Source of the DNA: Asterias amurensis
Taxonomy: Eukaryota > Echinodermata > Asteroidea > Forcipulatida > Asteriidae
Assembly (NCBI RefSeq): GCF_032118995.1
Contig: NC_092667.1
Coordinates: 1,604,931-1,668,930 of the forward strand
Direction: 5' to 3'
Length of the DNA: 64,000 nucleotides
Made by a program: the position numbers and the translations under genes. The stretch's first letter is position 1, and each line of letters opens with the position of its first letter. Shown here one piece after another: positions 2,781 to 61,409 of this stretch. The notes beneath the pieces are model-generated. The model saw nothing but the letters and a program-made list of their open reading frames with translations. It was not told where the DNA came from and searched no databases.

Positions 2781-3010
2781 CATACCTACACTGGGTTTCA
2801 ATCGCCTCCACAACGCCCATACTGGGTTTCAATCACCTCCACAACGCCCATACTGGGTTTCCCTCGCCTCCATAAACGCCCATACTGGGTTTCAATCACC
2901 TCCACAACGCCCATTCTGGGTTTCCCTCGCCTCCATAAACGCCCATACTGGGTTTCCCTCGCCTCCATAAACGCCCATACTGGGTTTCCCTCGCCTCCAT
3001 AACACCCATA
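2781..3010. repeat. Minisatellite, unit 31-32 bp, abutting a splice acceptor
   Basis: About seven copies of a unit with core CCCATACTGGGTTTC, alternating between an AATCACCTCCACA-like and a CCTCGCCTCCATA-like second half. It ends within about 10 bp of the ferlin exon acceptor at 3018-3019, so the minisatellite supplies the pyrimidine-rich 3' end of that intron. The core resembles the upstream 163-bp repeat. Confidence 0.9.
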
Positions 3011-3019
3011 TATAACTAG

Positions 3020-3200
3020 GCGTCCAGATTCATCCTTCCTGTGGATGATGCACCCCTTAAAGACCCTAAAGTACGCCCTGTGGTTCAACTATCGGACATT
3101 GATCCTCAAGGTGATCATCCTAGCCTGCTTCGTGATCCTCTTGGTTCTTTTCTTCTATGCCATGCCGGGGTACTTGGTCAAGAAAATGCTGGGTGCATGA
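3020..3200 (+). CDS. OTOF: Otoferlin-type ferlin, alternative terminal exon A (membrane anchor)
   Basis: Ferlins are tail-anchored multi-C2 proteins; type-2 ferlins such as otoferlin act in Ca2+-triggered vesicle fusion, and this exon would give the C-terminal anchor. The AG acceptor is at 3018-3019; base 3020 completes a split codon, then 59 codons run from 3021 to TGA at 3198-3200. Residues 1-8 read RPDSSFLW, then MMHPLKTLKYALWFNYR, a hydrophobic helix at about 27-48, and the tail YAMPGYLVKKMLGA. As recalled, both vertebrate otoferlin last exons also have 59 codons and the same RPDT...KK.LGA pattern. There is no local ATG start, as expected of a 3' exon. The catalytic-like features of the C2 domains lie outside the window. 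Assignment to otoferlin rather than another type-2 ferlin is inference. Confidence 0.9.
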
Positions 3201-3346
3201 TTTGAATGGTGTATGTTAACTTTGCATGCAAGGTGGGTGTTGGGTAGGATTACATTGGCGTATGCATGGAAGAAGGGTGTAAGGCTTTGCGCCTTCTCCT
3301 AGCCACACAAAGTACTTTTTTTTTCCAGTAACAAAAGGCCGTGAGC

Positions 3347-3352
3347 AATAAA
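3347..3352 (+). promoter_or_regulatory. Candidate polyadenylation signal for terminal exon A
   Basis: AATAAA lies 147 bp after the exon A stop, a normal distance for a short 3' UTR, supporting use of this exon as a genuine last exon. Confidence 0.55.
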
Positions 3353-3502
3353 ATGGCTCCTGACAACAACAAAAATATAGCATTAATGTTACACTTTTGT
3401 TGCTATAGAATTATCCAAAAGAGATGTTTTCCCATTCCCGTGCAGAATTTAACCTGTCATATGATAAACCACTAAGGAAACTGACTGGGTAAATTTTTAA
3501 AC

Positions 3503-3757
3503 TAAGGGTGCATTCGCCTTCCCCGTGTCGACCCTGGTGTTCTCATTCGGGCGAGCCCTTGACGAGAGCTAATCGAACGATCAAACTCGCCCTCTCGTGG
3601 TGAAGTCATGCACCTCGAGCCAACCCCAAGTGACCCACTCCACAAGCAGGGCACTTGGGGCTGACCCGGGTGAGCCCCTGGAATGACGCCAAAGCTATTA
3701 GAATGTACCGGGGGCAGACTGGGGTCGACCCAGGGAAGCTAATCGAACACACCCTAA
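3503..3757. mobile_element. Probable MITE with ~35-bp imperfect inverted ends
   Basis: Left end CTAAGGGTGCATTCG is mirrored by CACACCCTAAG at the right, with AGCTAATCGAAC and GTCGACCC elements repeated inside. More GC-rich than its surroundings. No coding capacity. Confidence 0.6.
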
Positions 3758-3771
3758 GATATTGACAAATG

Positions 3772-3860
3772 GGGAGACTGCCAACATAGGGCTAGATAGC
3801 ACAATTGGTAGGTTCAAATCCCGCTCCAGTAAATTTGTCTTTGTTCAATCCCAAAACTCT
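3772..3860 (+). mobile_element. tRNA-derived SINE fragment, internally deleted
   Basis: A pol III box A-like GCTAGATAGCACAATTGGTA is followed almost directly by box B-like GGTTCAAATCC, so the anticodon region is missing. The downstream tail AGTAAATTTGTCTTTGTTCAA recurs near 18690, and a related tRNA-like head sits in all four lectin introns. Confidence 0.6.
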
Positions 3861-4029
3861 CATAATAAAACCTTTCTATGATGACTAAAGATTGGCAGAA
3901 AAAAACTGTCAAACTTTCACACTTGTTTGTCTTGAATGACACTTGTGCATATTTATTGCTTACGCTCCATCTCTGGTAGCTTTTTGCTATGCCCTTCTTC
4001 CACGCACATGACGACATAATGCTTTGGTA

Positions 4030-4136
4030 GTGTCTGAATCAATAACGGCCACAGCTACGGCTAAATGGATGTAACATCAGTGTTGCACTCATTATTCATA
4101 GCCAAAGCCAAAGTCAGTTGATTCAGGCACTGCAGG
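4030..4136. mobile_element. Small inverted-repeat element
   Basis: Ends GTGTCTGAATCAA and TTGATTCAGGCAC are inverted copies around an imperfect palindrome of about 105 bp. A similar small palindrome is at 19524-19650. Confidence 0.45.
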
Positions 4137-4145
4137 CTTGTTTAA

Positions 4146-4298
4146 AGACACGGATGGATTTCACAAAGAGTTAGGACTAGTCTTATCTCGAGTTAGGACC
4201 AGTTGCTCGTCCTAACTTAGGACTATCCATGCAATTTGTATGTCTCCTAGGACCAGTTCTAAGTTAGGTCTAGTCCTAACTCTTTGTGAAATCGACCA
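4146..4298. mobile_element. Palindromic MITE
   Basis: Left arm GATTTCACAAAGAGTTAGGA and right arm TCCTAACTCTTTGTGAAATC are inverted copies, with internal repeats of the CTAACTTAGGAC type. Non-coding hairpin element. Confidence 0.8.
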
Positions 4299-4673
4299 CT
4301 GGACACTATTGGTGCTTGTCAAAGACCAGTCTTCTCACTTGGTGTATCTCATTACATGCATGAAATAACAAACCTGTGAAACTTTGAGCTCAATTGGTCG
4401 TCGAAGTTGCAAGATAACTATGAAAGAAAAAACACCCTTTTCGCACGATTTTGTGTGCTTTCAGATGCTTGATTTCGAGACCTCAAATTCTAAACTTGAG
4501 GTCTCAAAATCAAATTCGTGGAAAATTACTTCTTTCTCGAAAACTACGTTACTTCAGAGGGAGCTGTTACTCACAATGTTTTATACTACCAACAGCTCCC
4601 CATTACTCGTTACCAAGTAAGGTTTTATGCTAATAATTATTTTGAGTATTATTACCAATAGTGTCCACTGCCT
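4299..4673. mobile_element. GGACACTATTGG-family palindromic MITE, copy 1
   Basis: About 375 bp ending in the inverted pair TGGACACTATTGG / CCAATAGTGTCCA, with a central hairpin GAGACCTCA...TGAGGTCTC. TTAA follows the right end at 4674-4677. The family recurs at 21155, 23513 (divergent), 44112, 49296, 49622, 59308 and 62367, with fragments near 32650, 37905, 40262 and 47286. Confidence 0.9.
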
Positions 4674-4677
4674 TTAA

Positions 4678-6002
4678 TACAAAATGTTTCACTTATTGCT
4701 CTTGATTCTGCAAGAAAGTGGCAATATCCTAATACTGTATAGTGATGTTGATATGGACAATGTCATAGCACATCGTAAAACTTTGCACATTTGAACGATG
4801 AACTGTTTTCTGCAATTAAACCTTGTTAAGAAAGTAGTCTTGCTGCTTGGAGCACAAACTTTTTGGGTTATTCGACATGTTCGATGAGTATGGTTAACTT
4901 TTATAGAAGGATTCATGCCTCACAAAAAAAAGTTCTCAAATGATCAATCTAAACAACAGACTGAAAGCTTTGCATATCTTTGGTTTATAGATGGAAACAT
5001 TCATTTCAATCCATCAATTTTTAAAAACATGTTGCATGAAATCAACTGGTCAAAATTTGCAGGCGTACTTTTTCAGAGCAGTTTAGATGAACCCAAACAC
5101 CAGGATGATTGGTACCTCACAAGTTTTGGAATAAGTCTGTTTGTATATTGTACTATTATCCAGTGGGCCATCTTTAATACATTCCCCCCTCCCCCAGAGG
5201 ATTAATACTCTGGTAACGAGAAATTACCTTTTCCTTGTTATTCTAAATTGCTGGGATTATTACCAATGGTTTTTACTAATATTAATAACTGGTATTGTTT
5301 TTTGTGGTTATTGGTATTTTTTACTGGTTTGTTGTGATAACAATTTGCTTTCACCTGTTTTATTATCAAAAGCTGTGGTACAATTTTATCATCGCCCAAA
5401 GTTCTAATCTTTTCGGAATATTGTTTTAGAAAGTTTGTTGGATAATCTGAAAGACTTTTTGAAGAAGAAAAATTGTTCTACACAATTTTGTTTTTACGAT
5501 CAGAACGTAACTGTCATTTGGCGGAACTTTGGAATTTAGTTTCTCAATTTTCCTCTTCAATTGATGCTACTAAACACTAGTAACTTGAAGTTAATAGCAA
5601 AACCACTGAATAATATCAGGCTTCTTGCTAATTGTTATCACCACTCAGCAGTTTCATGGAATTGTGATGGCATTGTTGACATGGATAAGGCCAGTTTATA
5701 TTGTACACAAATAAAAAATCAGTTTCTACAAATCATAAAGTTGCAATGTTTTCCAAATTGTTGAACTTTGAAATTCTCAAATCAACAAGCGTTTGTCAGA
5801 GGCTATTAGGGTGTATTTTACCTCAAGACACCCTGATTTTCATTTGGACAAACTCCTGTATTTATTTTACTTGCAAAAGCATTGGAATTGAGCAACTTGG
5901 AAGCATTGTTCTTAAAATTGAGAGCAACTCTGTAATCACTGTGTCCAGATTCTGACCACTATTTTGTAGCAACAGCTTATGATAAAAACTGGCTTTAAGC
6001 TT
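4678..6002. other. No gene seen
   Basis: Intron-like AT-rich sequence. A 96-codon frame at 4915-5205 has no recognisable domain, and no splice-bounded exon stands out. Confidence 0.45.
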
Positions 6003-6168
6003 GGTTCATACTTCTTGCAAATGTAAAGCGCTTTTTTGGCGACACATGGCTATTTTCACAGAGAATGTTTCGTAGGAGTTGAGCACAGTTCAACTGTTGC
6101 GAATTATTGGCTGCGAATTTGTGATGTCAAAATTCGCTTCGCATTCGCAGGAAGTATGAATGGGCCCT
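6003..6168. mobile_element. Short TIR element
   Basis: Left GGTTCATACTTCTTGCAAATG pairs with the right-hand CATTCGCAGGAAGTATGAA. A related single arm occurs near 57912-57945. Non-coding. Confidence 0.55.
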
Positions 6169-6264
6169 CACTCTGATCCCATAACATCCCATGGTAACAC
6201 TAACACTCGCTAACACCAAGCTTCCCTGTTACTCTTTCTCTTCTGTTGTGTTTCTACTAACCAG

Positions 6265-6445
6265 CCGTCCCGATACCTCCTATGTCTGGTTCCTGAACCC
6301 ACTAAAGGCTCTCCGTTATGTTATATGGACTCGCTTCAAGTGGACCATTATCACCTTCCTGCTGTTACTCCTACTCGTTGTCTTCCTGGCTTTGTTTTTC
6401 TATAATGTGCCACCATATACTGTGAAGAAACTTATGGGTGCCTAG
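6265..6445 (+). CDS. OTOF: Otoferlin-type ferlin, alternative terminal exon B (membrane anchor)
   Basis: Acceptor AG at 6263-6264 follows a pyrimidine-rich stretch; base 6265 completes the split codon and 59 codons end at TAG 6443-6445. The lead-in is RPDTSYVWFLNPLKALRYVI, then WTRFKW, a leucine/valine-rich helix at about residues 27-47, and the tail YNVPPYTVKKLMGA. It keeps all family landmarks, but PGY is PPY. Same phase and length as the other five intact terminal exons, so it could be joined to the same upstream donor. Its last codons and the DNA after the stop are repeated downstream (6408-6895). The nearest clear AATAAA is at 7735, 1.3 kb after the stop. Confidence 0.9.
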
Positions 6446-6895
6446 GGGAATGGAATGGGTGCCACTGGGCTCAATGGCATTACCTTGTAGGTTAAGTCAG
6501 TCTTGGTTAAGGTACTTAAATGGGAGCAACTGGGTTCAAATGGGATGATCTTACAGATAAAGAAATCAACTTACCACCGTATATTGTGAAGGAATTAATG
6601 GGTGCCTAGGGGAATGGAATGGAATGGGTGCAAATGGGTTCTAATAGCATTACCCTGTAGGTTAAGTCAGTCTTGGTTAAGGTACTTAAATGGGAGCAAC
6701 TGGGTTCACATGGGATGATCTTACAGATAAAGAAATCAACGTACCACCTTATACTGTTAAGAAGGTGCCTAGAGGAATGGAATGGGTACAAATGGGTTCT
6801 AATAGCATTACCCTGTAGGTTAAGTCAGTCTTGGTTTAGGGACTTAATGGGAGCAACTGGGTTTAGCTGGGATGACCTTAAATATAAAGAAATCC
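6408..6895 (+). repeat. Tandem repeat of the exon B tail plus 3' flank, three units of 164-170 bp
   Basis: The block from the codons for PPYTVKK through the stop and about 130 bp of 3' flank is repeated with CCACC landmarks at 6410, 6574 and about 6744. Unit 2 still reads LPPYIVKELMGA then a stop in one frame. Unit 3 has lost bases and the frame runs on. Each later unit has lost the membrane helix, so these are exon-tail duplicates, not full exons. Confidence 0.85.
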
Positions 6896-6997
6896 ATAAA
6901 TGCAGAGGCTGTTGGAAAGTATTTGATAGGTGCCACTACAGTTGATTCTTGGATGTTTTAGGCCCAACTAGGCTTTTGCAGATGTTAGAGAGACACC

Positions 6998-7190
6998 GGA
7001 CCCAATTTCACAAAGCATGTAAGCACATAATTATGCTAATAACAGATAAATCTTGCTTATCAGAAACAGGTAACCAGCCAAAGTTCCATAAAGTTTTACA
7101 TCATTGCGACTGGTGCCCTACTGAGCGAAGAAATTTGCTAAGTATTTTTTTTCTGCTTAACAGCTTTATGAAATTGGTCCTGGTGCATTT
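6998..7190. mobile_element. Palindromic MITE (CCAATTTCACAAAGC type)
   Basis: Left CCCAATTTCACAAAGCATG and right GCTTTATGAAATTGG are inverted arms; internal TTGCTTA and GCTTAA motifs mirror one another. A widely dispersed hairpin family in marine deuterostome genomes, by recall. Confidence 0.7.
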
Positions 7191-8085
7191 GGAGAAACAG
7201 ATTGGATTCTTTTAATATTCCACAAGGTTAAACAGTTTGGATAGGTGGGTAGATTGGGAGAGTCAAATGTGGGAAGTAGGAATTATGAAAGGTGGTTCAA
7301 CATAGCTTTTATATTTAATGGTTGCAAGGGTGGGAGGTTACAGGTTAAGTCATGAAGAAAAGATTGAGATGGTGCTGGATACGAGATGAAAATGTGTGTG
7401 ATGTGTGTGATTGGGTCAATCAAACCTGTGCTACAAGGCTAGAGGAAGGAATTGAGTTTTGCAAGTTCAAAGAAATGTGGCTGAAAATTAGAAATTAATA
7501 GATGTCAAGATGAAGAATAGGAAATTCTCAGAGCATAGGAAGTTCTTTTGATTTGGGTTGGGGATTAGTATTGTTGCTTTGGTGGGTCCTACCAAGGAAG
7601 TAGTAATTTCTACCTCCATGGTCCCACATTATGAGTACATGGGAAGGAAAGGGGATGAGTACCGGGATATTTTACAGGAAAACATGAAAATCAAAATACT
7701 TAAAAACTCAAAAAACTCAGAAATGTTTGAGTTTAATAAAGTAAAAGAGAATTAATATTTAAATGATATAATAATTGGGTAAAATCTATGGGTTTATAAA
7801 GATAGAGATTGTAGTAAGATGTAGGAATGTGCCTATAGTAGGCATGTGATTTCTCAGGATTTGTACAAATTTCTCAAAATTTCCTAGAGCCTTCAAATTT
7901 CTAGAACAAGTAGAATCCATGTCTGCAAGCCATTTTTTTTTTTTTTTTTAATTTGGCAAATCCATACAGTGCAATTGTAGGTAAATAAATTGCCCATTTT
8001 AAAGTAATGAATTATTATAAATAATGTATAGACCTTGATTTATTTCACACAGATCTTCCAGGGGAAGTTACTCCGAATATGTAAT
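7191..8085. other. No gene seen
   Basis: AT-rich. Contains AATAAA at 7735-7740, a possible distal polyadenylation signal for exon B, and a T tract near 7930. Confidence 0.45.
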
Positions 8086-8217
8086 GGGAGACGATTTTGG
8101 ACACTAGAGGGCAGCACACTTATAACCAAGTGAATCACTTGGGGACTTATATGCTAAATTTAGGAAACCTTGGAATGTTACCGGCTGTATGTCTGCTGCC
8201 CTCTACCATTCCGAAAT
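8086..8217. mobile_element. Degraded palindromic element
   Basis: CTAGAGGGCAGCACAC on the left mirrors GTCTGCTGCCCTCTACC on the right. The plan resembles the element at 550-690, but the sequence is distinct. Confidence 0.55.
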
Positions 8218-9729
8218 TCACTAATACATTTCTCTTTCTTCATGTTGCTTGTCTGTAAACTAACTGATAAAATTAACATCTAGTTGCTAACCTCATTGTA
8301 AATAACCCTATTTTAAATATCTTGTCAATGTCTAACAAGCGTGTAACACAGTCAATTATATCAATTATTAGAGTCATTTAACAGAGCCGCAACATATGAA
8401 ATCCAAGTTCTTCCCAAGATTACCTTTCATCTTTTTGTATCGATATTGTACATACCACATCTGTAAAAAGTATATATAAATTGAACTATGGTTGCTTGAT
8501 TCCCCTAAAGAAAATTTCACCGGGATTCCAGGCAGGATTCCATTAGAATCCCTTTGGGATCCCGCCGGAATCCCGGCTTAATTTTCTATGGGGTCTGTTA
8601 AATAGTGTTATTCACATCTATAGTTTTTAAACAAGAGCCTAGATATAGTTTATTTATTTATTTTTAATAAGAAACAGTCAGTTTACTTACTCCAGCAAAT
8701 CACGATCTTCCTCCGTTTATATTTTGGCTATCAGTCCAAAATTTAGGTTTTTACAATGAGTTATCAGGTTTCTCTTTAAAATAAACATGCAAACTGAAGA
8801 TTTTAAAATGAATTGATATTAGGCTGAAGTAGAGTACACTTGAGGTTTGAATTTTTCAAATACCTTTGGTTAAGACTTCAGAATGTTATCATACATTTGT
8901 TACAAGTATATTTGTGAGTACTTTATCATTTTGAAATGGTTGGTCATTGTATTAAAGATTGTATTACACACATAGTGCAGTAAATGCATAATGTGGATTC
9001 CCATGCATTTGTGCACCAGAGTGGGCAATTTTGGAACACTGGGTGTCAACATATGAAACAGGTTTTGAACTCAATCAGTGCCCAGTATTAATCATTTTAA
9101 TGCCATGCATTTAAAGCTGTAAATTATTAAAAGTATGTTTTTGAAACTGCATAATTAGAAATATTTTAATAACAAGGTTTACCGTCAAGGCATGCACAAG
9201 TTCAAAGCTATAGCTTAAAAGATATTTTGATCACAACTTGAATTTTTAACCGTTATGGTAACTGATAGGACCTTATTTTTTGTATTTAAATTACCCCTGC
9301 CAAAACACGTCATGCAAATATGGCAAATTTGCCAGGACACTCCTAGGACATGTAGGATTAAGGTGACAATTACTCTGCCAAATGTTATCAATTATTTCGT
9401 CGATAAGGAATGCTGGCAGAGAGATGGGTTGGTAAAAGTTATTGTACTAAGCTTATAGTAATAAAGGTGACTAACAACCAAACTAACAAACTACAATGGT
9501 CAAAAAGTAGTCGTTTGTTTAAAAAAAAAAAAAAAAAATACTGTTATTGAATGAACATATATTTGAGGGGAGTCATGGAGAAAGTAAGTATGATTTTGTT
9601 TATTTATTTTCATATCTTTACACTTTGAAGATTCATCCTTATAGACTATTTTCATAATGTGCATGTTCATCTTTAGATAGTTTCTTTTGTTGCTATAAAC
9701 CTATTAGTTGTTTGAATAGATGAGTGAAC
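8218..9729. other. No gene seen
   Basis: AT-rich sequence with a cluster of GGGATTCC/GGAATCCC motifs at 8519-8582 and an A tract near 9522. No recognisable exon. Confidence 0.45.
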
Positions 9730-9733
9730 TTAA

Positions 9734-10125
9734 AGGAACACGTTGCCTTGGATCGGTCGAGTTGGTCTTTGAAAAGCGTTTGTAACCGTTTTTATAAAAT
9801 ACATATGGGTAGAAAGATGTTGTAAAAGTAAAATACAATGATCCACACAAACATGCCTCGAAATTGCGTGGTTTTCCAAAATTCTTCCTTTTACCTCGTC
9901 GACTAACACGTCGGCCATTTATGGGGGTCAAAATTTTGACCCCCATAAATGGCCGACCATGTTAGTTCGCACAGTAGAAGGAAAACCACGCAATTTCGAG
10001 GCAAACTTGTGTGGATCATTGTATTCTACTTTTAAAACATCTTTCCAACCGTATGCATTTTATAAAAAACGGTTACAAACGCTTTTGTTTTGACCAACTC
10101 GTCCGATCCAAGGCAACGTGTTCCT
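9734..10125. mobile_element. AGGAACACGTTGCC-family long palindromic MITE, copy 1
   Basis: A nearly perfect 392-bp hairpin: AGGAACACGTTGCCTTGGAT at the left mirrors ATCCAAGGCAACGTGTTCCT at the right. TTAA borders both ends. Further copies at 27097-27467 and 51293-51674. TTAA target plus AGG termini suggests the Kolobok or piggyBac superfamilies (inference). Confidence 0.9.
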
Positions 10126-10302
10126 TTAAGATATCTTATCAATGTATCCCTTTGTATAGACCAAAGCTATTGCTGGGATGCTGGCGGCGCAAGGTTTTGT
10201 ACACAAAGACATCAAACAACCACTTTTGAACTTGTTATATAACCTACTTATATTAAATAATAAAGTAATAATAATAAATAAACGAATAAACACAAACTAA
10301 GC

Positions 10303-10560
10303 TTAGCAAAGAAGTAAATCAGTCTTTAACATGGCTTTGAAGGATTCAAGAGATGAAGCCTGACGGATGTTTAAGAGGGAGGTTGTTCCATAATGTAGGT
10401 GCGCCGACTGTGAAGGCTCGTTGGCCATACCGGGTGTGGGTGCGGGATGCAGGGGACAAACACAAATGGGAAGGTAAAGAGGAACGAAGATTGCGAGAAC
10501 TGGCCTTTGGTAGAAACAAGGTTCTGAAGAAAAGTATCCAAGACCATTTCTGACTTCGAA
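10303..10560 (-). mobile_element. Non-LTR retrotransposon (CR1/L2-like) 3' end fragment
   Basis: On the - strand the conceptual protein contains RAFTVGAPTLWNNLPLKH then FKAMLKTDL, the typical C-terminal end of CR1/L2-type LINE reverse transcriptase proteins ([AG]P.LWN.LP...FK..LKT.L). Only this 3' end is recognisable. Confidence 0.7.
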
Positions 10561-11020
10561 AACAAGTAGGAGAACTTTGAATATCAACAACTATAAAACA
10601 AAGGGGGCTCTGAAATTCTGACAAAAAACCTCGCCGATGTATCACGTTTTTAGAAACCTGGTCGTGCAGTTTCTGTGCAGTTTCACATTTAAACTAACCT
10701 ATTCAAAGTTCAATTTCTGTTGAGTTGCATAAATCTATGGGCAGTTTTCTACATACATCGTTATGTCCTGATGGGAAGTTTTGTAAATCGTTGAGGAAGA
10801 CACTTAATTCGCATAAAAACTAAACAAGGCAACGGTTTTCCCATGTCTTCGTATACAAAATCATGCGCTACCAGCTCCACCAACAGCAGCGATCACTTGT
10901 GCACATGTATTGATCTGATAGACTACAAATTCCTCTATTGGCGCAATTTACCTGGCGTCATCACACAATAAATCTTGGTTGCGGCATTTTGGGGAACACA
11001 TGCAGTTAAAAGCACACTAT
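10561..11020. other. No gene seen
   Basis: No exon or repeat recognised. Confidence 0.4.
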
Positions 11021-11026
11021 ATCCTT

Positions 11027-11185
11027 TGGGTTATCTGGTTGGCATGTCTTGCCTTGCCTTGCCTTCCGCATCTGAAGCCCTGGTTCAAATCCCACTGGCG
11101 GCACTAACGTGGATTGGGTGTTCAGTCCTTGCCGGATTGCGTGGATTTCCCCCGGAATAACTACCAGGGGTTTTCCTCCCACATC
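11027..11185 (+). mobile_element. tRNA-derived SINE
   Basis: Box B-like GGTTCAAATCCCACTGG is followed by a tail GTGGATTGGGTGTTCAGTCC and GGGGTTTTCCTCCCACATCT. The GTGGATTGGGTTTTCAGTCC-type tail recurs after box B elements near 56400 and 57000, marking one SINE family. Confidence 0.65.
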
Positions 11186-11190
11186 TAAGA

Positions 11191-11275
11191 AGACACCATG
11201 GTCAAGTGGTTAGACTGCAGGACTTGCAATCACAAGGTTGTGGGTTCGAATCCCCAGCTAACCACTGACTTCACA
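11191..11275 (+). mobile_element. Second tRNA-like SINE head
   Basis: Box A-like GGTCAAGTGGTTAGACTGC and box B GGTTCGAATCCCC lie 36 bp apart, as in a tRNA. No matching acceptor stem is seen, so a pol III SINE head is more likely than a working tRNA gene. Confidence 0.5.
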
Positions 11276-11434
11276 ATGACTGGAATAAATATCTTTGTCT
11301 AGTTACTGAATAACAATTTCTGGATTTATACAATTCATAATCAATGTTTTTATGAGAGAGATTGGTTGTTGCCAGCTTGGTGTTTATATCCCCTTGTGGG
11401 AGTTTGCCGAGTTCCCTTGATGGGAAGATCATCT

Positions 11435-11473
11435 AAACAAACAAACAAACAAACAAACAAACAAACAAACAAG
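11435..11473. repeat. (AAAC)n microsatellite
   Basis: About ten perfect AAAC units. Confidence 0.95.
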
Positions 11474-13063: not shown

Positions 13064-13313
13064 GTAGTCTTGCCCCAAGACGATATAACTCACTGTTGGA
13101 TAGTGTACTGCGCTCAGTTGTAACTCGCTAAAGCGCGCCCTCCTTTGACTGGTTTGCGTGGCAAGACTAGTCTCTGTCGATATTTGCTCGCCAGACTACG
13201 ACAGAGACTAGTCTTGCCCCACAAATCAGTCAAAGGAGGGCACGCTTTAGCGAGTTACAACTGAGCTCAGTACACTATCCAATATCCAGCAATATCGTCT
13301 TGGGGCTAGACTA
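13064..13313. mobile_element. Palindromic MITE
   Basis: The left arm, with CCCCAAGACGATAT and GTAACTCGCTAAAGCG, is mirrored at the right by CGCTTTAGCGAGTTAC and ATATCGTCTTGGGG; a second inner hairpin centres on the ACAGAGACTAGTCTTGCC motif. Ends about 210 bp before exon C. Confidence 0.85.
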
Positions 13314-13522
13314 TTGTGTGAGTAACTTGCGAATAACGTGCCTAACCTTCTGTAACTTTTCTCAGCTAATAATGAAATCCTTTTTCGTCTTTCAACTCCC
13401 TCTTCCAATAACCCGTGCCATTAATCCACATCCTAAACCCTTGTTTATTAACAGTGTTAACTATGGCTGTTTGTTGATTGCTTTTTTTGTCTAACCCCCA
13501 CCCATCTCATCTAACCTAACAG

Positions 13523-13703
13523 TCGTCCAGATACATCCTTCATCTGGTTCCTGAGTCCATGGAAGTCCATTCGTTATGTCATCTGTACTCGTCTCAAATG
13601 GCTACTAATCAAGCTGCTCATTCTTTCACTACTTACTGCACTCATCGTGCTCTTCATCTACGCCGCGCCTGGATACACAGTCAAGAAGATCATGGGAGCC
13701 TAA
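13523..13703 (+). CDS. OTOF: Otoferlin-type ferlin, alternative terminal exon C (membrane anchor)
   Basis: Acceptor CTAACAG ends at 13522; base 13523 completes the split codon; 59 codons run to TAA 13701-13703. The peptide starts [20 protein letters not shown], continues [10 protein letters not shown], has a helix at about residues 27-47 and ends [14 protein letters not shown]. The ICTR.KW juxtamembrane sequence is close to the vertebrate otoferlin end that reads ICTRYKW (from memory), so C and D may be the orthologous subtype. Same phase and length as the other exons. An AATAAA lies at 14198, after a MITE. Confidence 0.9.
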
Positions 13704-13753
13704 AGAGACAACTAACATAACCATGTAATTGCTTATTAACATAGCTTCAATTA

Positions 13754-14179
13754 TACCCTGTGTCTTTAAAAAAAAAATTATACACTATTGAAAAGGCTGC
13801 CGAGTAAAAACTGTATGATTGAGGGGGAACATGTTTAAGTGTATGGATAGCTTATTGGACTCGACTTTCATATGGCACCAAACAGTCTGAAAATAATTGA
13901 TGCTTGGGTGAGCACTGCTCACCGAAGAATAAGTGACCGTCATCTTGGAGCGAAGAATAAGTAACCTTGGAGTGAATTTTGTGAAGCTTAAAGGGGCTTA
14001 CGTGTACCTCTCACGAATCGGAAGGCTAATTACATGCGCAACCTAATGTTCATACAGTTTACATAAGTGAGCAGTGCTCATCCAATAATGAATTTGTTTC
14101 AGACTTTTTGGTGTCATATGAAAGTTGAGTCCATACAGCCACTTCAAAAGTGTATAGTTGTTTTTTAGACACCCTGTAA
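13754..14179. mobile_element. Palindromic MITE just downstream of exon C stop
   Basis: Left ACCCTGTGTCTTTAAA and right TTTTTTAGACACCCTGT are inverted arms of about 42 bp, and the interior also mirrors itself (GTGAGCACTGCTCACC / GTGAGCAGTGCTCATCC). It starts about 50 bp after the stop, so it would lie in the exon C 3' UTR. Confidence 0.8.
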
Positions 14180-14197
14180 ATTAATCAAATAAGTAAT

Positions 14198-14203
14198 AAT
14201 AAA
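14198..14203 (+). promoter_or_regulatory. Candidate polyadenylation signal for terminal exon C
   Basis: AATAAA 495 bp after the exon C stop and just beyond the MITE, which would place the whole hairpin in the transcript. Confidence 0.4.
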
Positions 14204-14219
14204 AATAGTGGCTTCTTTT

Positions 14220-14545
14220 ATATAGTGCGCATATGCATCCCCATACGCTATGCCCTCACTCAGTGACATTTAGACGCGGTAATATACAGTGTTTTCCTGC
14301 AAGGTATGTGGGGCTGTGTTTGTACTAAGAGACCTACTCCTTTTACATAGCACCATGTAAATGTTAACATGGTGCTGTGGCGCAATATTTAGCCAGTCAA
14401 ACCAGGAACACCGGGGCGGACCCCTTTCTCTTTTTGATAACTGCACTGGGTTCTTTAACATGTATTACACACAACACACAGGACCAACGGCTTTACGTCC
14501 CATCCAAAGGACGAAGCATCATGGTCAAGTGTTTTGCTTAAGGAC
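14220..14545 (+). repeat. Dispersed repeat fragment (CCAGGAACACCGGGGCG type)
   Basis: Contains CCAGGAACACCGGGGCG and CCAACGGCTTTACGTCCCAT, sequence I recognise as a dispersed repeat in marine invertebrates. The first motif recurs in a fragment near 49110. The class was not determined. Confidence 0.5.
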
Positions 14546-14682
14546 ACATGGTCACTGGTCACGGTTAGCCCGCACGAGCTTCATGGATTTATATAAATAT
14601 ACAAGAGTTGCCAGAAATGTATTAAAATTAGTGCAAGACTTGAAGCAATCCATGTAAGATGTCTTGTGAAATCAAGCAATTT

Positions 14683-16715
14683 AGGTGCCGTATCAAAATA
14701 GGCCAACGCGTTGTGAGGCGTTGCAACGCGTTGTAGGCATTTCCAAGCGTTGTTGGCGTTGTGGGGCGTTGTTGTGCGTTGGTAATTCTTACCCCGATTC
14801 GTAGGTGCTTTGGCAGGCGTTGTAAGAACTGACATTGTTATGTAGCAAACGTCGCGCTTCGGTAACTCCTCATGCATATTCATCTTTACTTCTTAGTACT
14901 CATCTTTATTCATGCTTGTCCGAGTGCACACGCATGCTCTGATCGCGTAAATGGTATGTGCAAAATTTATTTGAGGCACATTTTTATTTATTGTCCGATG
15001 TTTCGGAGTCAACTATTACTCACGGGCGGGGGTGCAAATTACTCGTGCAGGCAATAATCATCGTTATAATTTTCATTCGACCATTATCAAGTACAACAAA
15101 TACAACTTAACTTACATCAAACTTCAATGCACAGAAGAGAGGCCTCTTGGCTGATAAGCAATTTGCAACAGCTTATTATTTTTTCGATTGTTAAAAAAAA
15201 AAAAAAACATTCTGGGGATGGAGCTGGAGATGACAGGGGTTGATTCTAACGACCGTATGATATTGGAAATGTCAGGCATACATCTACAACTACCAAAGTT
15301 TTGTTCAACGTCATCGGACATTTATTACAAATTACGTTCCTTTTTAATTTCCTCCCATTTGTCGACCAAAATTATTGGCCAAAGATTGCCGTTGTGTACG
15401 AGCAGTACCGGTACAAAGCATCATCCGCCCTTGAGCGACGCCGTCCATCGGGCACGCATGACCGGCTAGTGCTGTGGAGCTCACGCTGAACTTTGATGTT
15501 GCATGCACTTTGACTAATTAGTTTGATACAAATTTCCTCATATTTTGGGTTTGCTTTCACCTTGGATGTTGAAAATTCCAGAAGTAAACTCTGTAGCTAT
15601 CCACTGATTTTATGGCTAAATTTTTGTAGAGTTTGAAAACGCAAAACTGATTTTAGCTTTTTGCTTTCTGATTTTTTGGGGATCAAACATTGTCAAACTT
15701 GTGAGCTGGAGATGACGGGGGTTGATTCTTAACTATTTAGCCACTGGAACCCAGCCGCCTAGCGATACACTGTATGCGGTAGGAGGAAACCTCGCTAGCT
15801 TGTGTTTGTAGAACAAAAGGAACATCAACAGAAAACTTGATAGTCAATAGTTGGTCTACGCATTTCTAATCCATCCAGTTGTTTATAAATCATTATGAAT
15901 TCTCCTTTCACAGTTGATTTGTCGAAGCTAATGACGATGAAATAATTTAGCTCATACCTTTTAGTAAACACAAAGGAAACTGTATTTATTCATCATTAAT
16001 GATGATATTGTCGAAAACTAACGCCTTCGCATTTAATTAGTATGAGCATTGAGCCAGATAAAAGCCTTGAAAAGCTATTGTGTCCATTTTATCCTTACAA
16101 AAGAATATTCGAGAGCCGATTATTGTTCCCAATGGGAGCTTGTACTTTTATACAAACATTACCGAAAGGTTGAAAAATTGTGCATAAATATTAAGCTGTT
16201 TTTTAAAAATTGAACTACGATTCCAGTTGTTTACTGCAAGAATCTTGAAAAATTGGTTTTCAGAAACTCGGGCGGTGCAGGGACTAGAGGGTTAACAACA
16301 GTACCGGTATTTTATAAAATATCACCATGATATTGGAAATGTCAGTGGTGCCGGAACCAAAAGTTTGGAAGGTATTTGTTCGGTCCTTAAATTGCAGGTA
16401 CAACTTATGAATCATTATTTCCCTATCACTGGTCCGTTGTCTACGCAACGGTAATGTTAATGAGTGGCATGTTATTCTTTTGTTGTCAGCCTACACCTCA
16501 CGGCAGCGTGTGTAGAGTGTGATTCCTTTCAAATTCAGTCACCCGTACGATGTACCGCACCAACGCACGGGCCTACTTTAAATATCAACACATCTCTTCC
16601 TTTTGGAACTAAGAAACAGGCAGAGTTAATGAGCTCAGTATACAACGCGTTATCCAACTTATTTTTTACAACGCCTGCCAACGCCTCTGCCGTTGCCTAT
16701 TTTGATACGGCGCCT
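14683..16715. mobile_element. DNA transposon-like element of about 2 kb with TIRs
   Basis: The left end AGGTGCCGTATCAAAATAGG and right end CTATTTTGATACGGCGCCT are inverted copies; both subterminal regions carry GTTG/CAAC-rich sequence (CAACGCGTTG). TTT borders each end. No transposase was recognised inside, so it is probably non-autonomous. It contains the nested element at 15733-16291 and two copies of GGAGATGAC.GGGGTTGATTC near 15220 and 15706. Confidence 0.75.
15733..16291. mobile_element. piggyBac-like non-autonomous element, copy 1 (nested)
   Basis: A 559-bp block with TTAA on both sides (15729-15732 and 16292-16295). Its inverted ends read CTATTTAGCCAC and, complementing the right end, CCTCTAGTCCCTGCACCGCC. 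A second copy in opposite orientation at 59887-60473 is also bordered by TTAA. No transposase. Confidence 0.75.
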
Positions 16716-16884
16716 TTTCCCAAATTCTAACAAAATGTAATCAAAATGAAGCTAGACTCTGAATTAAAATAGTCTGGTCTCTTGTTATAACATGAAGTTA
16801 ATGCTGTTAAAGCAATGCAGCAAACTAGGCGATGATTGTTGCTGCCAAACAAAGGCCTATTATTCTATTTTTAACTTTCCTTCA

Positions 16885-17159
16885 CACTACCATGTTAGTA
16901 TCACAATAATATTTCATACTACCACTACTACTACTACACCTAATAAATTAGTTAATAATCTCTAAGTGCTATACAACTACCTTGTTTTACTAATGCTATG
17001 AGACCAATAGCCTCGAGTTAGATCACTACCGTGTTACTATCACAATAATATTTCATACTACCACTACTACTACTAATAATAATAAATTAGTTAATCTCCA
17101 AGTGCTACAACTACCTTGTTTTACTAATGATATGAGACCATTAGCCTCGAGTTAGATCA
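16885..17159. repeat. Two-copy tandem duplication, unit about 137 bp
   Basis: The segment from ACTACCATGTTAGTATCAC to CCTCGAGTTAGATC is repeated once with about 90% identity. Each copy holds a small (ACT)n tract. It ends about 120 bp before the exon D acceptor. Confidence 0.85.
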
Positions 17160-17282
17160 TGTGTTTTTCTGTTTTTGCATTGCGTGTACTTTTAACTACA
17201 TCATTATTTTATTCCTGCATTTTTTGTTTGTGTTTCTCCATTGATCACCTTTCCCTTCATCTCATTTTTCCCCCATCTCTAG

Positions 17283-17463
17283 TCGGCCAGATACCTCCTT
17301 CATCTGGTTCTTTAACCCACTCAATGCCCTCAAGTACATGATCTGCAATCGTCTTAAATGGATCCTGATCAAACTCTTTATCGTGACTCTCATCGTTGCG
17401 TTCATTGGTCTCTTCATCTACGCCTCACCAGGATATGTAGTCAAGAAGATCATCGGTGCCTAG
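17283..17463 (+). CDS. OTOF: Otoferlin-type ferlin, alternative terminal exon D (membrane anchor)
   Basis: Acceptor TCTCTAG, after a strong pyrimidine tract, ends at 17282; base 17283 completes the split codon; 59 codons run to TAG 17461-17463. The lead-in is [20 protein letters not shown], then CNRLKWILIK, a helix at about residues 27-47 and the tail YASPGYVVKKIIGA. It is closest to exon C: ICNRLKW against ICTRLKW, and both have LIK before the helix, suggesting C and D arose by a local exon duplication. All family landmarks are kept, so it looks functional. No close AATAAA was found; a variant signal may be used. Confidence 0.9.
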
Positions 17464-17584
17464 GAGAGTGGCTGCAGCGTTCGGAGGATGTTTTTTCTGT
17501 CTTTTTTTTATTTGAGTTATCCCCGATCTATCCATATCAATCAAGTATGGGATTTGGATGGATTTAGTACTTCTTAAGTTTAAA

Positions 17585-17690
17585 CTTTGCTCTAGAATTG
17601 TACAAGTCGTGGGTTCGAATCCCACCCGAGTAATATGCCAGTGGGTTTTTTTCACAGAGCTCGGGAAAGTACCCCCAAAAAACTAAGTAA
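17585..17690 (+). mobile_element. tRNA-derived SINE fragment (GCTCTAGAATTG type)
   Basis: Contains GCTCTAGAATTG, box B GGGTTCGAATCCCACCCGAG and the CTCGGGAAAGTA tail start. It matches the fuller copy at 55571-55755. The 5' head is missing. Confidence 0.75.
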
Positions 17691-19523
17691 TTGAATTAGA
17701 TTAACATCAGTGTACTCAAATTTCTGTATGGATTTCATTACTCGCGACTTTTTGTTGATGAACTTTCACAGAAAATTTAAGTCATAGAATTAGTATAAAA
17801 ATAACTCAGTAAGCGTAGGTAAATAATTGAATTGGATAATTATGATGTAAATTAACTTATTAGTATGTAAAATTACTAATCCTCATGTAAAGGTTTCAAG
17901 TTGAAATGCACGTATAAATGTTTACTATTAATGGTGTTCTTTATGAAGTATTTATAATAACAAATATCAATAACTGTTTGAAATTCCTTAATTTGATAAT
18001 ATTTTTTTGGGACTCTTTAAACAAAACTGTCTTTCATGTAAAATGTGCAAAATGGATAGTGTGTATTTTTCTACAGTGTTTTTTTTTTAAGTTAATATCA
18101 ACTCTGCTCTGTATAGTGGGGACAATGTTTTTGGTGGTGGTGCAATAACCTTGAAATATTTTGGTCTTTCTCTTTTGAAGCAAGAAAGAAATTAAGTTAT
18201 TCTGTTAAAAAAACTGTACTGTATTCCAAGAGATAGATGCAAATATGATCTAACTCTCAAAAATTTATCATAAATACCAAAGTAATAATGTTTTCACAAT
18301 TAAAAGAATTACATATTTGCCATTGAATCATGTTTGAATGATTCAATGGTAAATATGTAATTTAATGTAAATTAAAATGTTAAAAAAATTTAATTTAAAA
18401 AAAATCTGTGAATGTTGTCAAACAGGGAACAGTTTCTAAAATTACAGAGAAACAAAATGTAATCAGATAAGTAATATAGCCAAGGTTTCTTTGCTTTAAC
18501 TTGTGAATGAAACCTAGGAATGAATTGTTTTTAAAGTGAAACAATTTCCACCCTCTATTCCTCCTTAAACGTACTTCTAATAAGTAGTTATTTGGTGTGA
18601 TCCACGCTACACAGCAGTTAAAGGTTGTATAGTTTCTGACAATACCCACAATCACAAGAAAGTGGAAACAATGACTGCCAACGTAGTAAATTTGTCTTTG
18701 TTCAACTCCAAATTGTATATAAACCAACAGTATTATACTTGATAAATTTCTTTTGCAGATTGCATTATAACAATGCTGGAATGTATTGGTATATGGCAAT
18801 TAACTTGTTTTGTTGCAGGGTTTATTTTGGCAATTTTAACAATTGCTTGAAATGGGTTTATTAACCCTAACATAACCCTTCTTTGCAGGAACTCGCTGGA
18901 TGAAATTAACCATTTTTTATTTCAGCATGAAAAATGTTCTGTTAACAATGTACTTCTTTGTTAATTCTCATGTAATAACATTATTGTAACTGAAATGGGA
19001 CAGTATTGCCTTTCAGCTGAATACAAACTGACAGTGCAAGTCTTGCGTGTATTCAAATTGTTAGACCTGCGTAAATAGCTTGATTTTGTTTAAATTAAAG
19101 TGAGAATCAAATTTTCCCTAAATATTCAATGTATGTATACACATGAGGCTTGCATGGTCTATTGCATGAAAAGCATATACCATGGCTTAAATAATGATAA
19201 GCAAACAGTGTGGCGCAATTAACAACAGTTTGATGGTGTAAGCATGAGCATAAAATCCTAATGGTGTCACCCAGGGTTGCCATATTCTCATTTGCATCTC
19301 ATGGAATGAAACTTTGGGAGTGCATGGGTAACCAGGGCCCAATTTTATTGCTCTCCTTACTGTCAAATTATGCGGTAAATATCACCATTCCACACTTACT
19401 ATGCAAGTGCTTAATTTCTGCGCAAGCGATGTGTAAGCGAAGAATGCCTAGTAACCAAGAGAACACATGCGCACAAGCAAAAATTTCTCGTTGAGCCGTG
19501 AACTTTGACACTGGTTTCTAAGG
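17691..19523. other. No gene seen; one short hairpin
   Basis: AT-rich. A perfect-looking hairpin lies at 18310-18361 (arms TTACATATTTGCCATTGAAT). A SINE-tail fragment (AGTAAATTTGTCTTTGTTCAA) is at about 18686-18706. A 134-codon - strand frame at 18395-18799 is the longest frame of the window but shows no domain and overlaps that repeat fragment. Confidence 0.45.
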
Positions 19524-19650
19524 CTGCGTCCAAACCAAGCAGCAATGGCTTTGGCTATGGACGTTAGCTGAAACAGCAGTGTTGAATGATAGGCCTTTCA
19601 GCAATCCAGGCATAGCCACTGCTAAAGCCATACGCTCTGACCCGGCCTTA
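19524..19650. mobile_element. Small imperfect palindromic element
   Basis: AAGGCTGCGTCCAAACC at the left mirrors GCTCTGACCCGGCCTT at the right, with GGCTTTGGCTATGG mirrored by the ATAGCCACTGCTAAAGCC motif. Resembles the element at 4030-4136. Confidence 0.45.
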
Positions 19651-19765
19651 TAACTTTTTGTTTCCCATCTTGGTTGTGGTATTCTTGTATACAATCATAT
19701 TATAGCATACAGGTGATTGGGTTTCTAATATCTGCTTATTACACTTCCTTTACACGCTGCCTCAG

Positions 19766-19946
19766 TCGTCCGGAAGGATCGATATCATGGTTTATGAATC
19801 CCTTAAAGGGGATGTATCTAACCATCTTAAGGAACTACAAATGGTGTTTAATTAAAGGTCTCATCGTTGGCCTGCTCATCTTCTTCATTGCTCTGCTCCT
19901 TTACGCCATGCCGGGATACACCGTCAAAGCTATCTTTGGCGTGTAG
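19766..19946 (+). CDS. OTOF: Otoferlin-type ferlin, alternative terminal exon E (divergent membrane anchor)
   Basis: Acceptor CCTCAG ends at 19765; base 19766 completes the split codon; 59 codons end at TAG 19944-19946. The start is RPEGSISWFMNPLKGMYLTI, so the usual RPDTSF is altered to RPEGSIS, followed by LRNYKWCLIK, a helix at about residues 29-48 and the tail YAMPGYTVKAIFGV. The tail replaces KK with KA and the final GA with GV. Length, phase, W, NPLK, YKW and PGYTVK are kept and the frame is open, so it is a diverged exon rather than a pseudoexon. It may anchor or sort differently (inference). Confidence 0.85.
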
Positions 19947-20718
19947 ACACCAGAGTCACGTTAGTTTGTGATATATCTTTGTATGCTGTGCTTGTTTGAG
20001 TTTGCACAGATTCAACAAATTATTCGCAGATTCATTTGTCATGTTTTGCAAGAATTTAGTTGCTGTGCGTGATGTGAACAATGTTTGACGCACTTTAGAA
20101 ACTGTGTGAACGATAATTGAAATTATTCTGAGTTTTACCAACACATGATTTCAAGTTATAACTTATGAAAATGAACCTTTTGCAAAAAGGCTGAAGTAGT
20201 GACCTTCTTTTGACTCAAATTGCTTAACTTGTGCAATTTGAAGTCTCTTTTGTTCTCCTCATTATGTTGTAATACCAGATGCAACAGACTAGTTACGAAC
20301 GATTTTGTTAATAAGGGCTGATATTTTCCAACCCTCTACAGAAGTTTTTCGCCAGCCTGTTTCAGATATCACAATTTGACGGCCTAGAAAATGCACTGGG
20401 CAAAACTATTCTTGATTTCACACTTTCGAAACAACATCGCTTTCCAACCTTCCTGGGGTTTTAACAAGAATTGAAAATATGTCCTTACAACTACAAGTGT
20501 GTTGGCCGTCTAAAAGGGAGTTAATTGTCATCAATTAATGTTACAATTAACCAGGTTTTGCACTTGTTTTGATTTTCATGCAGTCACTTTTGAGTTTGCC
20601 ATTTTAATTGTAACAACTTCATGTGAATGAAAAGAAAACCATCCGCCAAAACATGTTAGACAGATGAAGCTCTAGAATATCAACAATTGTACAAACTAAT
20701 GACAAACCAGCGATGGTG
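19947..20718. other. Exon E 3' flank; no gene seen
   Basis: Presumed 3' UTR and intron-like sequence. No clear AATAAA was noticed. Confidence 0.4.
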
Positions 20719-20722
20719 TTAA

Positions 20723-21080
20723 AGGATTTGGGTACTTTTTCAAAATGTCCATAGATTTACATTAAACTCACAGGGTTTGAAGATAATGATAGTGGAAAGC
20801 TTCCCTTCAAATATTACTAACTGAGGTGCTGTAGTTTTTGAGAAATGAGTAAAACAATGTCATGAAAATATGTTTGTAAATGCTTAAAACAATTTTGGTC
20901 TCAATCTCATGAGACAAAAATTATTTTCATGACATTGTTTTACTCATTTCCCCATAACTACAGCACCTCAGCACGTAGTATTTTTTAGGGAAGCTTTCTA
21001 CTATCATTATCTTCAAACTGTGTAAGTTTAGTGTTAGTTTGTGGACATATTTTTTGTCCTACAAAAAGTACACACACCCT
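20723..21080. mobile_element. Palindromic MITE (TTTGAAGATAATGATAG family), copy 1
   Basis: TTAA at both borders (20719-20722, 21081-21084). Arms with GAGTAAAACAATGTCATGAAA and its mirror TTTTCATGACATTGTTTTACTC form a long hairpin. Family members directly follow exon F and its duplicate. Confidence 0.85.
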
Positions 21081-21154
21081 TTAAAACGGTCATGTGCTGC
21101 CACTATGTATGTTCATGCAAATGCCAAATCATGTTCCAAAAATGACAACAATGT

Positions 21155-21534
21155 AAAGGCAGTGGACACTATTGGGAATTACTCAAAATAATTATTGGCA
21201 TAAAACCTTACTTGGTAACGAGTAATGGGGAGAGATTGATGGTGGTATAAAACATTGTGAGAAACAGCTCCCTCTGAATTGCCATAGTTTAAGAGAAAGA
21301 AGTAATTTTCCACGAATTTGATTTCGAGACCTCAGGTTTAGAACTTGAGGTCTCGAAATCAACCATGTAAAAGCACACAACTTAGTGTGACAAGGGTGTG
21401 TTTTGTTTTTCATTATTATCTCGCAACCTCAATGACCGATTGAGCTCAAATTTTCACATTATGTTATTTTATGCATATGTGGAGATACACCAACTGTGAA
21501 GGCCAGTCTTATTACCGAAAGTGTCCACTGCCTC
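21155..21534. mobile_element. GGACACTATTGG-family MITE within duplicated segment
   Basis: Inverted ends AAAGGCAGTGGACACTATTG and GTGTCCACTGCC with the central GAGACCTCA hairpin; same family as 4299-4673. Confidence 0.85.
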
Positions 21535-21967
21535 TAATGTATAGATGGCTTGCAATACGACTATTTGCCATCTGTACGTGCAATTTGGAACAGAAAGTCA
21601 TGCGTTATTGTGAGAATGGCGTGCGTGCAGCATGCACACATTTCACACAACGCATTGCTTGATTGGTTGTGAACAACATGGCTGCTTTAACCATTTGAGC
21701 GCTTGACACGCATGCTTGCCAAAAATGTGCTGTGCCCACAAAGATGGCGTCTATTATATTGGGAACATCTATACCCTTGATATTGAAGTATAAAGACTAA
21801 CCAAAGTGACATTCAAAAGACTCAATTTTATCCCTGCCCTATTAAAAAAAAAAAACCTGTTTATCCTATCATGCAAACAGCAACAGCTAAATGAGCTAAT
21901 ATGCAAATAATCAACATGCAGCATGCTTATTAACCTTTGAACCTTAACCCTTGCTCTCCTTCCCCAG

Positions 21968-22148
21968 CCGTGCCGATACATCCTTCCTGTGGATCATCAA
22001 CCCGATTGTAGCAGCTCGTTATGTTCTATGGCGTAGTTTCCGCACAGCGATACTAAAGGGCCTGGTTGTTGCTGTATTTGTCTTATTCTTAGCCCTCATG
22101 ATTTATGCTGTGCCTGGCTACACAGTCAAAAAGATCTTAAATGTTTAA
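21968..22148 (+). CDS. OTOF: Otoferlin-type ferlin, alternative terminal exon F (membrane anchor)
   Basis: Acceptor TTCCCCAG ends at 21967; base 21968 completes the split codon; 59 codons end at TAA 22146-22148. The start is RADTSFLWIINPIVAARYVL (RPD is RAD, NPLK is NPIV), followed by WRSFRTAILK, a valine/leucine-rich helix at about residues 30-48 and the tail [14 protein letters not shown], with GA replaced by NV. The W.....TLILK/TAILK pattern resembles exon A more than C or D. It is the last intact exon of the array; a broken twin lies at 60821-61002. A palindromic MITE starts within about 50 bp of the stop. Confidence 0.9.
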
Positions 22149-22169
22149 CAAATATTTTTTATTTAGTCA

Positions 22170-22551: not shown

Positions 22552-22555
22552 TTAA

Positions 22556-22742: not shown

Positions 22743-22746
22743 TTAA

Positions 22747-60690: not shown

Positions 60691-60820
60691 TTATTAATAA
60701 ACAAAAAACCTGTTTATCCCATCATGCAAACAGCAATGGCTTAATGAGCTAATATGCAAATAATCAACATGCAGCATGCTTATTAACCTTTGAACCTTAA
60801 CCCTTGCTCTCCTTCCCCAG

Positions 60821-61405: not shown

Positions 61406-61409
61406 TTAA

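Follow-up and report, generated by a model that had tools for sequence, protein, structure and literature searches.

A 64-kb stretch of contig NC_092667.1 from the sea star Asterias amurensis (the window) contains an array of terminal exons that encode ferlin membrane-anchor tails. Six intact tail exons lie on the + strand and were named T1 to T6 in strand order; a seventh copy was named T7 (Table 1). Each of T1 to T6 comprises one base that finishes a split codon, 59 further codons, and a stop, and an acceptor AG stands directly 5' of each. The six thus have the equal length, equal phase, own acceptor, and own stop expected of mutually exclusive terminal exons that arose by tandem duplication. 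A previous sequence-only reading had placed six terminal exons at these starts, with a common split-codon phase, and both the positions and the exon structure were borne out in 6/6. That reading was right about the number of intact copies and overlooked the frameshifted T7.

The Pfam profile Ferlin_C (PF16165; length, 154; gathering score, 29.4 bits) matched all six exons with scores over that cutoff. The matched part begins at profile position 99, ends at 152 or 154, and corresponds to the anchor end of the model. Although the proposed tail family is therefore present throughout, its motif is looser than had been claimed: T1 reads RPDSSFLWMMHPLK, T5 reads RPEGSISWFMNPLK, and T6 reads RADTSFLWIINPIV, and only 10 of the 59 columns are invariant in an alignment of the six tails that contains no indel. 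Each tail has a single hydrophobic 19-mer (mean Kyte-Doolittle score, 2.81 to 3.27). An AlphaFold2 model of T4, built from the six-row alignment, is a long helix spanning residues 12 to 47 (mean predicted local distance difference test score, 76; predicted template modeling score, 0.42). Compared with solved structures, T3 and T4 had one convincing match, dysferlin 9b8k at residues 2020 to 2076 (E values of 9e-11 and 9e-10), and the remaining matches, with E values of 0.19 and above, were chance-like.

We built a profile from T1 to T6 and compared it with the 2957 six-frame open reading frames (ORFs) of the window. It recovered the six exons and one copy at 60.8 kb (E < 1e-20); the weaker matches among those listed (E of 0.0085 and above) were T7 in its other frame, pieces of the tandem repeat behind T2, or chance-like. 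Poly(A) hexamers are found 3' of every tail, but their background of 1.9 per kb gives them little weight.

Table 1. Ferlin tail exons and associated features of the window. Ranks are among 6759 AGs, scored with an approximate acceptor weight matrix.
Feature	Coordinates	Strand	Details
T1, terminal exon, Ferlin_C tail	3020..3200	+	TAG acceptor, stop TGA; Pfam 37.4 bits; acceptor rank 3642/6759, weak locally
T2, terminal exon, Ferlin_C tail	6265..6445	+	CAG acceptor, stop TAG; Pfam 45.9 bits; acceptor rank 352/6759
T3, terminal exon, Ferlin_C tail	13523..13703	+	CAG acceptor, stop TAA; Pfam 36.7 bits; acceptor rank 608/6759
T4, terminal exon, Ferlin_C tail	17283..17463	+	TAG acceptor, stop TAG; Pfam 36.6 bits; acceptor rank 49/6759
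T5, terminal exon, Ferlin_C tail	19766..19946	+	CAG acceptor, stop TAG; Pfam 44.6 bits; acceptor rank 166/6759
T6, terminal exon, Ferlin_C tail	21968..22148	+	CAG acceptor, stop TAA; Pfam 35.9 bits; acceptor rank 2/6759, tied with duplicate T7; strongest of the six
AG-free zone, candidate AG exclusion zone	1416..3017	+	1602 nt between the AG at 1414 and the T1 acceptor AG at 3018
Pyrimidine run, candidate polypyrimidine tract	1430..1456	+	27 nt, uninterrupted; longest of 4 runs of at least 14 nt in the first 23 kb
163-bp tandem repeat, 2.7 copies, AG-free	2312..2747	+	Inside the zone
32-bp tandem repeat, 7 copies, AG-free	2790..3010	+	Inside the zone, ends 10 nt before T1
T7, frameshifted copy of T6	60821..61002	+	Single-frame reading 25.8 bits, below the 29.4 cutoff

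Constraint on diverged tails

The six tails share 22 to 39 of 59 residues in pairwise comparisons, and their exons differ at 29 to 50% of nucleotide sites. The third codon position is the most divergent in 14 of the 15 pairs, the exception being T3/T6, in which the first and third positions tie at 30. Among the 15 pairs, nonsynonymous divergence (dN, by NG86) lies between 0.22 and 0.59; synonymous divergence (dS) was usable in nine pairs (0.89 to 3.03), with dN < dS in all nine, and the other six pairs have no dS value. In a neutral simulation without indels, run until pairs were on average 0.557 identical (0.562 for the real tails), ∼23% of tails stayed stop-free. At this rate, six intact tails, which would arise with a probability of ∼1e-4 if the tails were independent, are not expected without selection. 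T1 to T6 look like coding exons rather than debris.

A candidate AG exclusion zone before T1

The sequence-only reading had missed a long AG-free zone that ends at the acceptor of T1. From its composition, 40.0 AGs would be expected (standard deviation, 5.1), and the minimum in 2000 order-0 shuffles was 25; it contains none. The next-longest AG-free spacings in the window are 152 nt on the + strand and 155 nt on the − strand. The zone is poor in G (9%; 146/1602), yet it contains 33 GA, 33 GG, and 131 CT dinucleotides and every trinucleotide that lacks AG. Its nonrepetitive part (positions 1416 to 2285; 870 nt) is also devoid of AG, compared with 21.4 expected and a minimum of 10 in 2000 shuffles (log10 P of −11.0), and has no match elsewhere in the window, so that an AG-less repeat alone does not account for the zone. 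Dispersed repeats are common in the window, but among the listed repeat pairs of at least 150 bases, none falls within positions 1416 to 2290. Immediately upstream of the AG at 1414, AG spacing is ordinary (9, 30, 22, and 4). The stretch before T1 thus passes the 100-nt length that marks the AG exclusion zones of distant-branch-point exons, and the AG spacing above it is normal.

Most of the zone is also weakly structured. Among 319 segments of 200 nt tiled over the 64 kb and folded, six of the nine least structured lie in the zone (one starting 15 nt before it), and the seven segments wholly inside it average −21.2 kcal/mol, versus −42.3 kcal/mol (standard deviation, 14.7) for the 310 segments elsewhere.

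AG exclusion zones are known from human genes. The first AG past the branch point is used after the first splicing step, so that intervening AGs are selected against (PMC1431707). Distant branch points have been mapped 100 to 400 nt away, with zones of 381 nt at PTB exon 11 and 438 nt in nPTB; among 67,334 human exons, the zone is at least 100 nt in 838 and at least 150 nt in 165 (PMC1431707). The AG-free stretch before T1 hints that the spliceosome selects this acceptor over a very long distance, and we lean toward the view that T1 is served by a distant branch point.

Acceptors along the array

The distances from the acceptor to the previous AG are 1604, 44, 68, 127, 53, and 46 for T1 to T6. 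A spacing of at least 44 is thus seen at 6/6 tail acceptors, versus 631 of the 6757 AG spacings on both strands of the window; given this background, six of six by chance would have a probability below one in a million if the acceptors were independent. The spacing at T4 is matched or exceeded in only 13/6757. Long AG spacing at the acceptors is evidence that is independent of the coding sequence.

Local acceptor scores of T1 to T6, from the approximate matrix, are −2.3, 6.0, 4.5, 9.5, 7.5, and 14.1. Acceptor strength rises with position in the array (rho of 0.886, reached in 12/720 permutations), as it does when measured by pyrimidine count (rho of 0.928; 6/720). No other part of the window goes as long without GG as the 431 nt at positions 16854 to 17285, which end where T4 begins.

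One gene or several

To which gene do the tails belong? The three + frames of positions 1 to 22.5 kb, translated with stops as X and scanned against Pfam at E values of up to 1, matched only Ferlin_C, in six stretches, and the best among the matches listed start at profile position 94 or 97. Nothing in these frames matched C2, FerI, FerB, or the front of Ferlin_C, with the caveat that short, diverged exons can slip through such scans. On the + strand from 22.4 to 63.1 kb, where the scans ended (E values of up to 0.01), there was one Ferlin_C match (E of 0.00069) and no C2, FerI, or FerB. The part of the − strand that was scanned, i.e., outside ∼35 to 48, 51 to 54, and 60 to 64 kb except for single ORFs, matched Lectin_C only.

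The tail starts are 2.2 to 7.3 kb apart, and human OTOF has 48 exons across 90 kb (PMC7768390). Intervals of this size are much too short to hold a ferlin body, and one donor joining several tails is therefore the simplest reading. Since the + strand of the first 22.5 kb has no further ferlin domain, alternative last exons of a single gene with its body upstream of the window are the best reading; on present evidence, T1 to T6 are very probably such exons. It is also fairly likely that the majority of the six are expressed. The sequence-only reading had called the tails interchangeable. Their compatible structure, their constraint, their functional-looking acceptors, and the lack of any ferlin exon between them agree with this claim, but the common donor on which it relied was not found in the window.

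That reading had also assigned the gene to the otoferlin type. The two human otoferlin tails used for comparison are provisional sequences; they agree with PMC10394277 on Ile1967 (cochlear) and on a block of >9 leucines (brain), and the agreement extends no further. Identities to these two tails, of 59 residues, are 27 and 33 for T1, 35 and 35 for T2, 34 and 37 for T3, 32 and 30 for T4, 24 and 27 for T5, and 21 and 31 for T6, and those to the dysferlin tail, of 57 residues, are 25, 27, 24, 22, 19, and 25. T1 to T5 are closer to otoferlin, and their identities favor the assignment, whereas T6 is mixed, being closer to dysferlin than to one of the two otoferlin tails. The gene is probably of the otoferlin (non-DysF) type. 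Ferlins have tandem C2 domains, of which C2E and C2F adjoin the anchor; those of the otoferlin type have no DysF domain and cluster with Fer1L2/4/6 (PMC2923515).

A tree of the tails was unresolved: no branch was starred, and T3 plus T4 alone stood at 82/84. These two tails have an I-C-[TN]-R-x-K-W stretch that also occurs in the tail that we take to be human exon 48; given the tree, we make no claim of orthology.

A proposed anchor switch

We consider it likely, from the features of the DNA, that T1 to T6 are mutually exclusive last exons of one ferlin gene whose C2 body lies upstream of the window and that a remote branch point limits the use of T1. The C2-domain exons would precede the window, and a single common donor, which would break off after the second base of a codon, would join one of the six acceptors. 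Each exon would add 59 residues, made up of a juxtamembrane segment, one transmembrane helix, and a short tail, and then stop. Because each exon has its own stop, an mRNA would encode one anchor, and exons behind the first would not be translatable. T1 is transcribed first and would normally preempt the other tails. It may be restrained by its poor local acceptor together with a branch point and pyrimidine tract ∼1.6 kb upstream (near positions 1415 to 1456), the use of which would be slow or regulated; if splicing uses whichever AG comes first behind the branch point, AGs would be purged from the interval. Upon skipping of T1, T2 to T6 would compete, and the broadly rising acceptor strength would offset the first-come-first-served advantage. 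By analogy with mammalian otoferlin, the choice of tail may set the membrane that carries the C2 body. When expressed in HEK293 cells, mammalian otoferlin with one tail was dispersed, and with the other it was mainly at the plasma membrane (PMC10394277, reporting Redpath 2016). We infer the common donor, the mutual exclusion, and this role of tail choice.

In its fullest form, the proposal is a six-way anchor switch. T1 would be reached by ∼1.6-kb scanning from a remote branch point through an AG-purged, mostly structure-poor stretch lengthened by AG-free minisatellites, and the other acceptors would be graded so that one transcript yields all six tails. We put this complete scheme forward tentatively, as somewhat less likely than not.

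Several observations weigh against the proposal. Neither a shared donor nor a penultimate ferlin exon was found within the window, so that the junctions are ones that we infer, and an otoferlin bait, also a provisional sequence, revealed no convincing upstream exon (best E of 0.21, at 50.9 kb). Positions 1396 to 1500 hold only two yTnAy branch-point motifs, TTCAT at 1461 and TTTAC at 1471, and both are behind the pyrimidine run rather than upstream of it. Good CTAAC-like motifs occur deeper in the zone, e.g., at 1684, 2239, 2386, and 2549, and the branch point may thus be nearer T1. The zone segments starting at 1601 and 2801 fold near the average (−34.1 and −36.6 kcal/mol), and 657 of the 1602 zone bases are tandem repeat, so that part of the zone's length reflects expansion of AG-free units. 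The acceptor gradient was noticed post hoc with n of 6 and an approximate matrix, and it is not monotonic (T3 is below T2 and T5 below T4). As for a common selector or docking element, the 1-kb flanks of the six exons share no k-mers beyond chance, and no flanks are common to different exons apart from those downstream of T5 and T6.

Other explanations can be weighed against the same data. If the tails were the ends of separate ferlin genes arranged in a cluster, the tandem duplication that is active elsewhere in the window would have a parallel here, but the short distances between tails and the lack of C2, FerI, FerB, and front Ferlin_C matches in the + frames of the first 22.5 kb make such a cluster highly improbable. 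Perhaps only one or two tails are in use, the rest being old duplicates that seldom, if ever, enter the mRNA. We regard this as quite unlikely: the T1 acceptor is indeed weak (rank 3642/6759) and adjoins minisatellites, and T5 and T6 deviate from the family motif at several positions, yet frame, length, phase, stop, and acceptor have been kept in 6/6 despite large or saturated synonymous divergence, long AG-free runs precede all six acceptors, and the one clear relic, T7, is frameshifted though 98% identical to T6. The same T6/T7 resemblance, 98% over 3.4 kb, is within the range of haplotype duplicates and could point to an array assembled from misplaced haplotypes or paralogues. T1 to T6, however, differ far more (at 29 to 50% of exon sites) and have almost no flank similarity; they are therefore not alleles of each other, and an assembly artifact is scarcely credible as the source of the array.

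A more serious alternative concerns the zone only, namely that 1.6 kb without AG is an accident of composition and repeat expansion with no relation to splicing. The low G content and the 657 bases of tandem repeat are what such an accident would leave, and an AG-less repeat can make a long zone unrelated to splicing, as seems to be the sole cause of a human 369-nt zone (PMC1431707). In that case, however, AGs are sparse farther upstream as well (PMC1431707), and here the spacing just above the zone is ordinary. The nonrepetitive 870 nt are AG-free too, at a composition that admits GA, GG, CT, and all AG-less trinucleotides. Furthermore, of the 3239 AGs on the + strand, the one that closes the zone is among the six acceptors predicted separately, and the upstream edge of the zone carries the longest pyrimidine run seen in the first 23 kb. 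We judge an accident to be rather unlikely, and a remote branch point for T1 remains our preferred explanation of the zone.

The seventh copy and other repeats

T7 lies in a repeated block. Positions 21764 to 25144 recur at 60627 to 64000 with 98% identity, and this second copy runs to the end of the window. The frame of T7 is broken by a one-base insertion, and two neighboring bases differ further on. Mismatches between the two blocks number 11 in the first bin of 250 bases, 0 to 2 per bin through positions 22014 to 23263, and 1 to 6 thereafter. Either the block was duplicated recently, or one haplotype was placed twice.

Smaller repeats adjoin other tails. A 170-bp tandem repeat of three copies (positions 6410 to 6894) begins in the last codons of T2, and the end of this exon thus recurs behind it. 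The downstream flanks of T5 and T6 have a match of ∼110 bp with 77% identity (positions 20762 to 20870 and 22173 to 22278) and another of 39 bp with 79%. In addition, 65 bp from the downstream side of T6 are found again on its upstream side, with 86% identity. These similarities are perhaps dispersed repeats. By eye, an inverted repeat (∼570 to 600 and 640 to 670) resembling a short palindromic element is seen at positions 560 to 680; it holds the sole GTAAGT/GTGAGT of the first 3 kb.

Beyond the array, blocks in positions 26727 to 53509 are repeated at offsets of 6.2 to 7.4 kb, mostly with 94 to 97% identity, including a further partial copy at 50.8 to 53.5 kb. These blocks carry similar C-type-lectin ORFs on the − strand (29662 to 30060, 37108 to 37479, 43333 to 43689, and 53105 to 53509), and Lectin_C was matched in both of those that were scanned singly with Pfam. 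Seven Rfam tRNA matches were found, at 29494, 36915, 43131, 52930, 48193, and 48453 on the − strand and at 55574 on the + strand. Several are within repeats, and only the one at 55574 (tRNA-Ser AGA) was also called by ARAGORN.

Comparison with known systems

Vertebrate otoferlin is a close parallel. Its alternative last exons, 47 (TMD2, brain) and 48 (TMD1, cochlea), encode the last 60 residues, the anchor is the main difference between them, and the stop of the first exon blocks the second (PMC10394277, PMC7768390). There are two tails in that gene and six here, an expansion that the sequence-only reading had pointed out and with which both articles agree. A comparable AG-free zone is not mentioned in the available portions of these articles. 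In Drosophila pip, a run of eight homologous alternative terminal-exon clusters arose by tandem duplication (PMC9013439), which is similar to the array described here. The pip exons are classed among untranslated-region examples, however, and are chosen via competing RNA structures (PMC9013439), whereas the exons here specify a membrane anchor, and no elements common to their flanks were detected.

The zone before T1 can be compared with exons known to use distant branch points, namely, alpha-tropomyosin exon 3, PTB exon 11, and exons of nPTB, HTR4, and OGDH (exon 4b) (PMC2991248, PMC7969005). The more distant the branch point, the more often the exon is skipped (PMC2991248); in OGDH, distant branch points enforce the exclusive use of duplicated exons and prevent intronic transposon insertions (PMC7969005). 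Unlike in these cases, the zone here is 1602 nt long and has tandem repeats inside it, and the branch point is a candidate from sequence. Its length is ∼4 times the largest mapped branch-point distances in the available portions of PMC1431707 and PMC2991248. It also exceeds the longest candidate in the available portions of the cited articles, 1126 nt in human tyrosine phosphatase sigma, which is of uncertain meaning, lacks branch-point proof, and has a mouse counterpart of 229 nt (PMC1431707). Neither a six-tail ferlin nor a longer AG-free zone appeared among the open-licence titles and abstract openings listed.

Should the proposal hold, a single ferlin gene would give rise to six proteins that join an identical calcium-sensing body to different anchors, which would be a natural experiment on the role of the anchor. 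The zone before T1 would then show, as a natural limit case, the distance over which the spliceosome can search for a 3' splice site. Tail swapping in otoferlin by means of last exons, tandem runs of terminal exons, and long AG exclusion zones are already known. What is unusual here is how many ferlin tails there are, how long the zone is, and that the two occur together.

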